Of a stretch of DNA of 64,000 bases, positions 21,128-29,142 are shown piece after piece. This stretch comes from Chloroflexota bacterium (GTDB lineage: Bacteria; Chloroflexota; Anaerolineae; Anaerolineales; Villigracilaceae), in assembly GCA_016235425.1 (NCBI GenBank), contig JACRLC010000031.1:1-64000 (forward strand), in the 5' to 3' direction. The translations under genes and the position numbers were made by a program. A model generated the notes under the pieces. The model did not search any database, was not told the DNA's origin, and worked only from the letters and a program-made list of their open reading frames with translations. Positions within the stretch are counted from its first letter, which is position 1; each line of letters starts with the position of its first letter.

Positions 21128-22138
21128 TCAGCCTTCCAACTTTCCCTGTGCGTACATCTCTTCAAACGGCGCGACGAATTTCTTGATGCCTTCGAGATCG
21201 AGCCACTCGGTATTATTGTCGCTCGAATAGCGGAAGCCGCCGTCGAGCAGTTTGCCCTTCGTCTGCCACGAGTAACCGAACCAGATGGCTTCGGCGGGCT
21301 GGACAACGAACATTTTATCAAGCTCCACGGTATGGCGCGCCTCGTCTTCGGAGATCAGCACCTCGTGCAATTTTTCGCCGGGACGGATGCCGATGATCTC
21401 CACTTCGGCATCGGGCGCAATGGCGCGCGCGATGTCGGTCACTTTGGTGCTGGGGATCTTGGGGACGAAGACTTCCCCGCCTTCCATCTGCTCGATGCAA
21501 CTGATCACAAAGCGGACGCCCTGTTCAAGCGACAGCCAGAAGCGCGTCATGCGGTCATCTGTGATGGTGACCTTGCCGTTGGCGCGCTGTTTGAGGAAGA
21601 GCGGCACCACCGAGCCGCGCGAGCCGACGACGTTCCCGTATCGGACGCACGAAAACCTGGTCGCTGAACCACCGGCATACGCGTTGCTTTGAACGGTTAA
21701 TTTCTCCGCCGCGAGTTTTGTCGCGCCGTAGAGATTCACCGGGTTGACGGCTTTATCGGTGCTGAGCGCCAGCACCTTCTTCACGCCGGCATCCAGCGCG
21801 GCTTCCACCACATTCGAGGAACCCATGATGTTGGTCTTGATGGCTTCCATCGGGTTGTACTCACAGGCAGGGACCTGCTTGAGCGCGGCCGCATGGACGA
21901 CCACGTCCACGCCGTGCATGGCGCGCGTAAGACGTTCGCGGTCGCGGACATCGCCGATGAAGTAGCGCAGGTTGGGCTGATTGAAGCCCTTCACCTGCAT
22001 CTCGTACTGCTTGAGTTCGTCGCGGCTGAAGACGATCACCTTTTTGGGGTTGTGATCGCGCAGGAGGATCTCGATGAATTTCTTCCCGAACGATCCCGTC
22101 CCGCCGGTGACGAGCACGACTTGATTTTTCCAATCCAT
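21128..22138 (-). CDS. pseB: UDP-N-acetylglucosamine 4,6-dehydratase (inverting)
   Basis: 336 residues, full length for PseB/FlaA1-type enzymes. NAD(P) loop TGGTGSFG (11-18); DELKQYEM; catalytic-type STDK (Asp128, Lys129) and YGATK (Tyr137, Lys141); SRGSVVPLF; GEVFVPKIPS. It makes a 4-keto-6-deoxy-hexosamine, the entry step to pseudaminic acid and some other deoxy-amino sugars. Its ATG overlaps the stop of the interrupted methyltransferase gene as TAATG, so translation was coupled to it. No PseC-type aminotransferase follows; an RmlD-like reductase and neuB do. Confidence 0.9.
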   Translation of the reverse strand: MDWKNQVVLVTGGTGSFGKKFIEILLRDHNPKKVIVFSRDELKQYEMQVKGFNQPNLRYFIGDVRDRERLTRAMHGVDVVVHAAALKQVPACEYNPMEAIKTNIMGSSNVVEAALDAGVKKVLALSTDKAVNPVNLYGATKLAAEKLTVQSNAYAGGSATRFSCVRYGNVVGSRGSVVPLFLKQRANGKVTITDDRMTRFWLSLEQGVRFVISCIEQMEGGEVFVPKIPSTKVTDIARAIAPDAEVEIIGIRPGEKLHEVLISEDEARHTVELDKMFVVQPAEAIWFGYSWQTKGKLLDGGFRYSSDNNTEWLDLEGIKKFVAPFEEMYAQGKLEG

Positions 22139-23084
22139 TATTGCTCCGTTTCCTTAATGGCCTCAAAGAGGCCGGAATCCTTTCGAATAAAAATATGACC
22201 CTTTTCCCGGAGTTCCTTCTCCAGGTCCCGTTCGATGCCTGCCAGTTCACTCTGCGATACTTCTGCTGCGCGAAAGCCCGACTGAATGTAATTCATGACA
22301 GGCCCGACTTCCGTAACTTGTAAATTCAGTAAATCACAGATTCAATCTTTGAATACCTGGTAGCAGCGGCTTTAGCCGTTTTTTCTCCTGAAATCTGCTG
22401 GAATCACTCCAAAATCCAATGGTTAGAACCGTGCCTATGGCAAATCTGTGATTTACTGAAATTGTCAGGATAACGGGCACTGGTGACAACCGGGAAGAAC
22501 GCTTTCAATTGCTCCAGGCCATTTTCCAAAGTAAACGGATTGACAAGCGGCTCGGATGATTTCGTGCTGGCACGTTTCAGCCATTCCTTCATTTCCTGCA
22601 CATGGTGATCGCCGACTGTCGTCGCAATCAAACGACCGCCTGGCTTGAGCACCCGTTTGATCTCTGCCAGCGCCTTCGGCCTGTCCGGCACATGATAGAG
22701 CATGTGGTTGGCAATGACGGCATCGAACCTTCCATTGTCGTAAAGAATGGACTGCGCGTCCACCTGCTCGAATTTGAAGGCGCGTCCCGTCACCACCAGA
22801 TTCCGCCAGGCGGCATCCAGCATTCCCTGGGAGAGATCGCTGAGCGTGATATTCCATCCGGCAGGGACACGGTCCGCGCATTCCTTCCACATTGCGGCGG
22901 AACCGCAGCCCAACTCCAGAATGCGCGCATCCGCCGGAAGTTTTACAAGTGTATCAAATATCCAGTTGAACCAGCCGTACGGATTCGTACTAAAGAGGCG
23001 ATGGATCGCGATACGCGCATCCAGGTTGGTCGAATCTCGATACTGGTCGGTGGTGAGGTAGTGTTGGTCGGTAAACCTGGACAT
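22138..23084 (-). pseudogene. SAM-dependent methyltransferase split by a MITE-like element
   Basis: The 5' part (23084 down to the element) has the class I methyltransferase core: ILELGCGSAAMW, TLSDLSQGML, VDAQSILY, VIANHMLYHVPD, KRVLKPGGRLIATT. It then reads into inserted DNA and stops at 22404 (226 residues). The missing C-terminus lies on the other side (22322 to 22138): LQVTEVGPVMNYIQSG through KGHIFIRKDSGLFEAIKE, the usual end of this subfamily. Removing the 132-bp element plus one 5-bp duplicate joins the parts in frame (PDN-LQV) into 269 residues, a normal family length. The 226-residue truncated product may still be made but lacks the final strand. A separate 52-residue peptide from ATG 22296 is possible and would keep the TAATG coupling to pseB. 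Confidence 0.85.
22327..22458. mobile_element. 132-bp MITE-like element with perfect TIRs and TSD
   Basis: The left end CAGTAAATCACAGATT (22327-22342) and right end AATCTGTGATTTACTG (22443-22458) are perfect 16-bp inverted repeats. Identical 5-bp flanks AAATT lie at 22322-22326 and 22459-22463, a target-site duplication. The interior has a GCGGCTTTAGCCG hairpin and no gene. The element is non-autonomous, and no matching transposase is in the window. It interrupts the methyltransferase gene. Confidence 0.9.
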
Positions 23085-23085
23085 G

Positions 23086-25104
23086 TTAATTTTCCCTTCG
23101 ACAATAGAGCGTGGAGACCAATTCCTGAATTTCAGGCTTCAGAGGCACTTCAAGATGGGTCAGCCTGTCACACGCCTGTACCCGCAGAGAAACATCCGTG
23201 TTGATCTTGGATGCGGTCTGCTTCATCCCCTTCTCATCACCTGTTATTGCATACGCCTGGAGAAAAGGCATCCACTCGGATTGGTCTTCAGGGTGAAGGC
23301 CAAGGCGAATGGCCTCATTTCCCAGCGAAACGACTTCGTCCCAATCCCCGAATTGCAAAGCCAGCTCCGCCTTTTCGTAGTAGTAACACCATTTCCTCCC
23401 AGGCTCGGGGCCAAAGGCGAAATCCGGAGGAATGAACGGAGCGGAATCGGTAATGACATTTTCAATGTTGGAAGACGGGGCCGCCAGCAAGACATTCCCA
23501 GGGTCCAATGGCGAGATCAGCGGCTGCCGACCATCCATTACGTGTACGCATGAAGTGGAAGCGGGCTGGCTCAGGACCAGCACGTTTCCATAATCGAAGT
23601 CAATGGTATGACTGCGATATTCGGTCTGCCGGTGGAGATTCCCCGTCAGAACATCCTGCAGGTTTGCATTGCTCAGGGTGATCGCAGAGACATTGTAATG
23701 AACGGGAATTTGAGCCGAAGGCTGTGGAAAATAGATCATATTCGCCGCTTCCATGACGCCAAAACCGTCATCCCCCATGTTCGCGGATGGATAATTGATG
23801 ACAAGAGTAGTGCCGGGACGAAGCGCAGGAATACGCCAACTCACCTGCCACCAGAATTCCTCGACGGCATCCTCCTCGTTCATCGCGCTGACAGAGATCG
23901 AGTAATGGGCCAGTGCCGCAAATGCAACGATCCCGGACAGACAAACCCATCTCACGCGGCGGGATGACATGGTATGGAGAAAGCCCGCCAGGGAAACCGC
24001 GGCGGCCAGGGAGGCGGGCAGGGCATAATGGGAAAATCCTTCAAGGTTGATGGTGCGATTTGCCATGATGACAGGTAAAATCCCCAGCATCATACCCGGC
24101 AGGCCAATGAGGAAAGCTTCCCGGTAGATTAATGCCGGTGACCCAGGTCCGTTCCCCGCTCCAAGCAACTTTTCAGCCCACAGCACCAGGAGCAGGACGA
24201 TCACCGCGACCGTGAGTCCAAGGATCGTGTCGCGCAGGCGCAATCCGAAGAAAAAACGCGGAAATTGGGCCACCCATGCCAGCACGCCGAGATTCAACAA
24301 ACTGTTAAACCACTGGATCAACCAGCGGGTTAGCGTGGAAACCGGGTCGCCCATCAGCGCGCTTAGCTGGAGGCCAATATCTGTCGCTTTGCGCTCATTG
24401 TTGAAAATAAATATCCGCCAAAAAACAAACCCCAGGGGAATGATGAGATTCCACATCCAGGCACGGGCTGAAACCAGTAATTTCGGGAAAAAATTACCGG
24501 CTGGACGGTCGCGCTCAACGATGACGTAAACACAAAGAAAGCGCATTACTTCCATGCCAATGGCATAGTCAACGAGGGCAATGTAAAGCCAGCCGGTCAG
24601 AACGGCGGCGGCCAGGTAAGCCACCCGATGAGCGCGGCCCGATGCCTGGACAGCCTTCAAGGTAAAAGCGATGGAAAATACCTGCAGGGCAAGGCTGGCA
24701 ATCATTGGCTGATATTCGATGGCGCTGATCCACCAGAAATATCCGGGATAAATCGTAAAGAACAGGGCTGTAAAAAAAGCGAACTTTCTCTCTCTGGGCC
24801 AAAGAATATTGAACAACCAGAGAGCCCCCACAGAAGACAGCGCGCGCCACAGGTACGCGGCGATGTGATAGGGAAGCGGGTGGGGGCCGAAGAGGGAATA
24901 ATAAATTTCGAAAAACACGCCGCGGGCTGGACGGTCAATGCTGAACATAAGATGGAAAATATCCGCCCCGGCAATGGTTCCATCATAGATGTAGTACCAG
25001 TCGTCTTTAAAATAAGTCAGGTTGCCAATGTTCGGGAGATAAACAATGGCGGAAATAATCAGAAGAAGGATAATTTCAAGAAAAGGTTTTTTCTTTAGAA
25101 GCAT
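23086..25104 (-). CDS. Multi-span membrane protein, GT39-like glycosyltransferase
   Basis: 672 residues from ATG 25104, two bases after the stop of the preceding methyltransferase gene; a longer frame to 25260 lies inside that gene. The first ~450 residues hold about ten membrane spans starting KKKPFLEIILLLIIS. An early loop contains FKDDWYY, an acidic pair where GT39/GT83-type lipid-linked sugar transferases have their catalytic Asp. A ~200-residue outer domain follows, with Cys residues and a TPR-like end (YYEKAELALQFGDWDEVV). It probably transfers a sugar from a polyprenyl-phosphate donor outside the membrane; this is inference from topology. Confidence 0.7.
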   Translation of the reverse strand: MLLKKKPFLEIILLLIISAIVYLPNIGNLTYFKDDWYYIYDGTIAGADIFHLMFSIDRPARGVFFEIYYSLFGPHPLPYHIAAYLWRALSSVGALWLFNILWPRERKFAFFTALFFTIYPGYFWWISAIEYQPMIASLALQVFSIAFTLKAVQASGRAHRVAYLAAAVLTGWLYIALVDYAIGMEVMRFLCVYVIVERDRPAGNFFPKLLVSARAWMWNLIIPLGFVFWRIFIFNNERKATDIGLQLSALMGDPVSTLTRWLIQWFNSLLNLGVLAWVAQFPRFFFGLRLRDTILGLTVAVIVLLLVLWAEKLLGAGNGPGSPALIYREAFLIGLPGMMLGILPVIMANRTINLEGFSHYALPASLAAAVSLAGFLHTMSSRRVRWVCLSGIVAFAALAHYSISVSAMNEEDAVEEFWWQVSWRIPALRPGTTLVINYPSANMGDDGFGVMEAANMIYFPQPSAQIPVHYNVSAITLSNANLQDVLTGNLHRQTEYRSHTIDFDYGNVLVLSQPASTSCVHVMDGRQPLISPLDPGNVLLAAPSSNIENVITDSAPFIPPDFAFGPEPGRKWCYYYEKAELALQFGDWDEVVSLGNEAIRLGLHPEDQSEWMPFLQAYAITGDEKGMKQTASKINTDVSLRVQACDRLTHLEVPLKPEIQELVSTLYCRREN

Positions 25105-29038: not shown

Positions 29039-29051
29039 TATTTTCTCAAAC

Positions 29052-29142
29052 GTCATTGCGAGGGCGTGTTTTTTCCGCCCGAAGCAATCTCCTCATCATA
29101 GTGGGGATTGCTTCGTCGGGCTATCACCCTCCTCGCAATGAC
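29052..29142. repeat. Dispersed palindromic repeat, family R1, copy 3
   Basis: GTCATTGCGAGG...GAAGCAATCTCC...GGGATTGCTTCG...CCTCGCAATGAC, filling the gap between the exporter permease and ATPase genes. Confidence 0.85.

Follow-up and report, generated by a model that had tools for sequence, protein, structure and literature searches.

The ISH3 family of insertion sequences is marked by CRGT ends, target repeats of 4-5 bp, a length of 1225-1500 bp and a Y-2-R-3-E-3-R signature, and was described in 2008 as so far restricted to archaea (PMC2266710). In Halobacterium, ISH2 is a MITE derived from an insertion sequence and mobilised in trans by ISH8 (PMC10264941). REP dimers of the GTAG and CGTC types form another class of small palindromic repeats, and some of those in A. 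variabilis and H. neapolitanus are embedded in long palindromes, for whose frames no transposase is named in the description given there (PMC3733652). The same source presents CGTC REPs as apparently lacking a dedicated transposase and leaves their mobiliser open; Chloroflexi are not among the phyla for which one of its passages lists CGTC repeats (PMC3733652). Anaerolinea thermolimosa appears in a table of REP counts, in a paper whose main text does not use the words MITE or transposase (PMC12306157). In the open-licence literature that we searched, we came across neither ISH3-type MITEs reported from Chloroflexota nor REP dimers described within identified DDE transposon ends. That full insertion sequences drive MITEs in trans is already known, and MITE insertions in cell-surface genes are ordinary.

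Here we describe a 132-bp element in the window, by which we mean the whole 64-kb stretch of DNA that was analysed. Sequence comparisons make it very probable that this element is a MITE of an Anaerolineales family with ISH3-like ends, mobilised in trans, which carries an inverted pair of REP-like units as cargo and splits a methyltransferase gene upstream of pseB. The likeness to ISH3 lies in the CAGT ends and 5-bp A...T duplications and, for the partner elements of relatives, in a length of 1239-1244 bp and a Y-2-R-3-E-3-R motif in the transposase; the differences are that the window element has no transposase and that the partners come from bacteria (Anaerolineales) and fall short of the NCBIfam cut-off (PMC2266710). 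As in ISH2, the element is short, has no transposase gene, has ends related to those of a full insertion sequence and is flanked by a target duplication, whereas its ends are ISH3-like, not ISH8-like, and its core consists of REP-like units (PMC10264941). With GTAG/CGTC REP dimers it shares a tag with a short-loop palindrome, an arrangement in inverted pairs and free-standing occurrence in the same genomes, but here the dimers stand inside transposon ends with target duplications (PMC3733652).

A short element without a transposase gene

An earlier note on this DNA had described a MITE with perfect ends, a true 5-bp duplication and no internal gene, and direct reading of the sequence bore this out: the element has perfect 16-bp inverted ends and AAATT on either flank (Table 1), and the interval 22322-22463 given in that note comprises the element and both duplications. 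No transposase ORF or other gene lies inside the 132 bp, and among ORFs of at least 80 aa the truncated methyltransferase alone enters the element. The element thus has the short length of a MITE, lack of a transposase gene, terminal inverted repeats and the AAATT/AAATT duplication, together with dispersed related copies in the source genome and in relatives.

Allowing up to three mismatches, the end motif occurs in the 64-kb window at these two places only, both exact; shuffled windows gave a mean of 0.47 matches, with two or more in 8 of 100 shuffles. Folding of the element on either strand beats all 200 shuffles (z -4.9 and -5.8), as expected from its inverted ends. Between positions 22000 and 23200 there are three promoter-like sites (shuffle mean 0.8), although such matches near the element prove nothing. 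The single Rfam match, at 17.5 bits, falls under the gathering score of 37.4.

Table 1. Features of the element and its surroundings, in window positions.
Feature	Position	Strand	Remarks
pseB, UDP-GlcNAc 4,6-dehydratase (inverting)	21128..22138	-	TIGR03589 E 9.5e-153, 507.8 bits, cut-off 407.75
Promoter-like site	22166-22137		at pseB start
Separated methyltransferase 3' remnant, in frame	22138..22326	-	TAA overlaps pseB start; 22141-22326 matches residues 208-269
Target-site duplication AAATT, left copy	22322..22326	.	
Putative MITE, non-autonomous, ISH3-type ends	22327..22458	.	
Left terminal inverted repeat CAGTAAATCACAGATT	22327..22342	+	same as both ends of L213 and L214
REP-like unit 1	22360..22380	+	unpaired GTAG tag and palindrome AGCGGC-TTTA-GCCGTT, then T run; same position in aligned relatives
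Terminator-like site	22365-22380	+	antisense to genes; 1 versus shuffle mean 1.5
Truncated class I SAM methyltransferase ORF, 226 aa	22404..23084	-	208 native and 18 element-encoded residues
REP-like unit 2, inverted, degenerate	22418..22438	-	ATAG for GTAG, palindrome GGTTCTAACC; L060 retains GTAG
Right terminal inverted repeat	22443..22458	-	perfect complement of left repeat
Target-site duplication AAATT, right copy	22459..22463	.	
Promoter-like site	22489-22461	-	just ahead of element
Promoter-like site	23078-23105	+	

Interruption of a methyltransferase gene upstream of pseB

The element interrupts an otherwise intact methyltransferase gene, as the earlier note had proposed. Removal of 137 bp in silico (the element and one AAATT) rejoins the frame into a 269-aa ORF across the junction PDN-LQVTEV, in agreement with that note. 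With this product as query, matches were found in 45 of 150 genomes, source genome included, and in 44 of the 44 other genomes the match spans the insertion point in one piece. The loci of 29 of these 44 were read, and in 28 of the 29 the first stop comes 263-297 codons from the start of the match. Most of these 28 full-length copies end in one shared conserved motif and a few run up to about 30 residues beyond it, so the family-typical C-terminus claimed for the rejoined protein agrees with all of the copies read but one. The exception is the only other genome of the same genus in the set (G001), in which the methyltransferase stops after 231 aa. This stop (L164, G001:C236) lies in the same C-terminal region, with the conserved tail continuing downstream, and could be due to relaxed selection or to a sequencing error.

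Given the perfect ends and duplication, the frame open on both sides and a site free of any insert in all 44 other genomes with a match, the insertion appears fairly recent, as had been suggested from the sequence of the window alone. Relatives carry the uninterrupted gene, and the 132 bp are not conserved at this site.

The Methyltransf_11 domain (residues 56-153) lies entirely before the insertion. In a 266-aa relative modelled with AlphaFold2 (mean pLDDT 91.7), the insertion point, placed by alignment, maps right after the strand at 200-206, and the part lost comprises a strand (209-212), two helices (216-225 and 233-250) and two further strands (253-256 and 259-265). Since these modelled strands and helices fall in the lost part, the truncated methyltransferase, without its last 61 residues, is probably inactive, and we regard this as the likeliest effect of the insertion. 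Alternatively, the truncated protein may still be active or have a new role, the insertion being near-neutral or providing a new C-terminus. A Methyltransf_11 domain complete before the insertion would fit such an outcome, as would the G001 copy, which is without most of the same tail. We nonetheless consider it unlikely, as 28 of the 29 relatives examined retain the lost tail, this tail has nearly invariant positions and holds the last strands of the fold in the model, and the 18 foreign residues come from the element sequence.

The neighbouring genes include NeuB-like, RmlD-like, glycosyltransferase, second methyltransferase, capsule-type and ABC-transporter genes, and the neighbourhood looks like a glycan cluster. 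The original gene had been said to overlap pseB as TAATG, and indeed the TAA of the rejoined methyltransferase shares one A with the pseB ATG. Among the relatives' loci, pseB lies downstream of the methyltransferase in 26 of 29, at gaps of 4-838 nt and with overlap in none of the 26; the other three have no pseB within the fetched stretch. The tight overlap of the two genes is peculiar to the window among the loci compared. The loss of pseB coupling raised in the earlier note is unsupported, given the absence of overlap at those 26 loci and the GGAG that the window pseB retains five bases ahead of its ATG.

The earlier note also suggested that the insertion could switch glycan methylation. In such a reversible switch, precise excision in part of the population would toggle glycan methylation and perhaps pseB translation. 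The frame is restored exactly when the element and one duplication are removed, and long perfect inverted ends are generally known to favour slippage or transposase-mediated excision. However, on paper any insertion flanked by a clean duplication can be undone, the stop after 231 aa in the same gene of G001 points to a relaxed need for it and not to switching, and the pseB overlap is absent from the 26 relatives' loci with pseB. A switch is therefore highly improbable and finds no support at this locus, where precise excision is a matter of arithmetic only.

Related copies and a target-site rule

Other copies in the genome had been proposed as a check on the MITE reading of the window element, and they were found. 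The full 132-bp sequence is single-copy in its exact version, and a search for a source copy returned none. The end motif (up to three mismatches) has 47 matches in the source genome (20 + 27) versus 6 (4 + 2) for the reversed control. The fetched stretches of this genome contain at least eight end pairs, seven of them with exact 5-bp duplications; eight is a minimum, as pairs were sought in fetched loci only, at no more than three mismatches per end and five in all, and decayed copies and unfetched places escape the count. When the surroundings of the eight elements were scanned for ORFs of 100 aa or more, the window copy lay inside the methyltransferase gene and six elements overlapped no ORF; the ORF that the C24 element overlaps is itself in conflict with one on the other strand.

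Across other genomes, a blastn search with the element matched four of 61, source genome included, and the exact end motif is present in 22 of 150, with no match of the reversed control across all 150. A scan of genome_contigs, in which each of 84,980 species is represented by one genome, for ends paired 102-132 bp apart gave 13 loci, of which 10 are from Anaerolineales/Anaerolineae and three are gammaproteobacterial. We rejected these last three (L061, L063 and L068) as family members because their interiors differ and they show no matching duplication. The paired-end pattern gave no match in viral contigs, and blastn with the element gave none in plasmids. Of nine copies compared, L060 from UBA5797 comes nearest to the window element, at 80% identity; it has the same length of 132 bp and the same AAATT flanks. 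Two 101-bp copies, at C26 and C109, are identical to each other, as are two 121-bp copies (L059 and L062), and the flanking duplications differ within each pair. Identical copies at different sites with different duplications indicate that the loaded, REP-carrying units would have moved as wholes.

Exact 5-bp duplications flank 28 of the 49 end pairs found, and 27 of these 28 have the form A-N-N-N-T, the commonest being AATTT (12) and AAATT (9). TAA stop codons may supply AAATT targets. In G041, an RmlD-like gene (L101:1794-2741) has an ISH3-like element at its stop codon, and this TAA overlaps the AAATT target; the MITE on C84 begins 4 bp past an ORF.

Autonomous ISH3-like elements in relatives

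Among 400 genomes of the order queried with the L101 protein, 20 had a match at 1e-20. Four full-length elements were read, with transposase ORFs of 383-409 aa. L101 is 1244 bp long and has a 409-aa ORF, AAATT on both sides and a single mismatch in one end. L213 and L214 are both 1240 bp long and have, at both ends, the same 16 bp as the window element, with duplications AAATT and AATTT. L215, of 1239 bp, departs from the 16 bp at a single position in one of its ends, and one of its flanks is cut off by the end of a contig. A further element, L232, has a broken ORF and a more distant end pair with AATTT on both sides. In these four transposases (L101:2745-3988, L213:288-1527, L214:1445-2684 and L215:1499-2737) the ORF has no stop of its own; it runs through the right end of the element, whose final two bases form the stop TGA together with the A of the target.

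The lengths of these elements lie inside the published ISH3 range of 1225-1500 bp, all four have CAGT ends, which fit CRGT, and the A...T repeats of 4-5 bp are represented by AAATT or AATTT in L101, L213 and L214. The Y-(2)-R-(3)-E-(3)-R signature is present as YRRRFG(V/I)ECSYR in four of four aligned transposases, two of which are identical proteins. The L101 transposase matches the NCBIfam ISH3 model with an E value of 9.3e-48, yet its 162.9 bits are below the curated cut-off of 225 for the ISH3 equivalog NF033541, a cut-off that none of 150 genomes passed (best 217.8). Because the scores fall under this cut-off, we call the partners ISH3-like.

Traces of such elements occur closer to the window. 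In G080, which belongs to the window's family group, two contigs share an identical element start, with an exact end and the N-terminus of the transposase, and both break off after 139 bp of it; a third contig holds the C-terminal 36-39 residues with an exact right end; breaks of this kind are what a multi-copy element would leave. At a contig end of G049, the beginning of an ISH3-like gene comes after a perfect end. Searches of the source genome found no intact ISH3-like gene with window-type ends. Its split ISH3-like transposase gene (L193, G000:C48:64964-65867) was rejected as the partner because the ends differ; its end, CAGTAGTTCACGAAAA, is of a second type, similar to ends in G008, G033 and others. 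We also rejected a 432-aa minus-strand ORF of L119, which has a weak resemblance to IS256 (E 0.0015); beside it lie a C-terminal fragment of an ISH3-like transposase and an exact right end. The transposase that placed this copy would lie in a gap between the 109 contigs of the source genome or have been lost. The transposase with matching ends that the earlier note had proposed to look for thus exists in relatives, where L213 and L214 share the 16 bp exactly, while none was found intact in the source genome. An informal comparison saw no sequence common to the MITE and the autonomous elements beyond the ends.

Relatives thus have elements of 1239-1244 bp with the same ends, A-N-N-N-T duplications and an ISH3-like DDE transposase, and on these grounds we identify the window element as a MITE with a putative ISH3-like partner in relatives. 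We propose that an ISH3-like DDE transposase, presumably supplied in trans, would recognise the CAGTAAATCAC... ends, excise the element and join it at a 5-bp staggered cut in an A-N-N-N-T target. The target, here AAATT, would then be duplicated, and the inverted pair of REP-like palindromes would travel as cargo. Insertion in the methyltransferase gene would end the protein after residue 208 and add 18 foreign residues, probably inactivating it.

REP-like units in the core

In sequence, the core palindromes are built like REP units with a GTAG tag, arranged as an inverted pair. Unit 1 has the GTAG tag; the tag of unit 2 is ATAG in the window and GTAG in L060 and other copies. In an alignment of ten copies, the palindromes are conserved at similar spacing from the ends. 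A REP-like unit of the GTAG, GGAG or CGTC type occurs in 33 of 38 MITE-sized elements versus 38 of 1107 same-length control windows from the same loci. This set leaves out, from the 49 end pairs, the seven that exceed 600 bp (five of IS size, the 751-bp pair of L077 and the 1089-bp pair of L119), together with L061, L063, L068 and the 144-bp pair of L119, which corresponds to the ISH3-like fragment. The Fisher p of 1e-38 for this comparison overstates independence, because the motifs were written after the elements had been viewed, the copies are partly related and L002-L008 were fetched by similarity to the window element. Five elements have no counted unit (L025, L093, L072, L065 and L008), and by eye L072, L065 and L008 show paired palindromes. 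The L065 element (L065:1148-1279) has similar ends and a core formed by a pair of AGAAACCGGGTTTCT-type palindromes, another REP-like kind.

Independent support for the REP-like identity of the units is given by their free-standing copies. The GTAG unit motif was found in 22 of 61 genomes, with up to 92 matches in one and 21 in the source genome, versus at most two per genome for the reversed control; G049 and G024 have 92 and 68 GTAG units versus 2 and 6 exact ends. A GGAG-type unit is present in six of the eight source-genome elements, and its palindrome is also free-standing, with 33 + 36 matches in the source genome versus 0 + 1 for the control, and free dimers were read. The CGTC-type dimer forms the core in G083 and some others, and its motif was found in eight of ten genomes searched, with 355 matches in G083 and 58 in the source genome. 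CGTC-type REP motifs (CGTCATTGCGAG) also occur in the window at 1467-1478 and 29051-29062. At loci returned by the three motif searches, no end-like motif lay within 150 bp of 25 of 30 GTAG, 27 of 29 CGTC and 19 of 26 GGAG sampled sites, some of these sites being the two arms of one dimer.

The three core types suggest that ISH3-type ends may have captured REP dimers at least three times, either by entry of dimers into MITEs or by ends that came to flank dimers. The linkers between ends and cores vary, also within the CGTC type. In four MITEs (L039:2497-2624, L042:2562-2714, L045:2527-2654 and L041 from 3054) a small palindromic insert (ACACCTGCCC...GCCAGGGA) lies in the loop of a REP unit, and in L042 and L041 a further palindrome is nested within it.

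That a RAYT-type tyrosine transposase moved the dimer, the ISH3-like ends being incidental, would accord with core units resembling the GTAG REP type and with the Y1_Tnp genes present in ten of ten genomes searched, but we all but discount it, as 5-bp duplications and ends identical to those of an ISH3-like insertion sequence are marks of DDE transposition, the duplications border the element's outer ends instead of the REP units, and most sampled REP sites without ends are also without this frame.

Implications

The favoured reading, a MITE mobilised in trans by an ISH3-like DDE transposase, makes the element a possible travel route for REP-like palindromes. We give an even chance to the broader proposition that ISH3-like ends have repeatedly enclosed GTAG, GGAG and CGTC REP dimers in Anaerolineales and disseminate these composite REP-MITEs by DDE cut-and-paste. 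The family of REP-loaded ISH3-type MITEs outweighs in interest the methyltransferase insertion, which is ordinary and whose role as a switch is speculative. Less ordinary is the composite build, in which one set of DDE ends surrounds three or more kinds of REP-like dimer also found free-standing. As both the ends and the target rule are known and there is a candidate transposase, a vehicle for CGTC REPs becomes testable. Composite REP-MITEs, if confirmed, would provide a concrete vehicle for CGTC REPs, for which there is apparently no dedicated transposase in the account cited above (PMC3733652), and would explain REP units inside genes such as the methyltransferase of the window. The same explanation may extend to the REP dimers in long palindromes of other phyla.
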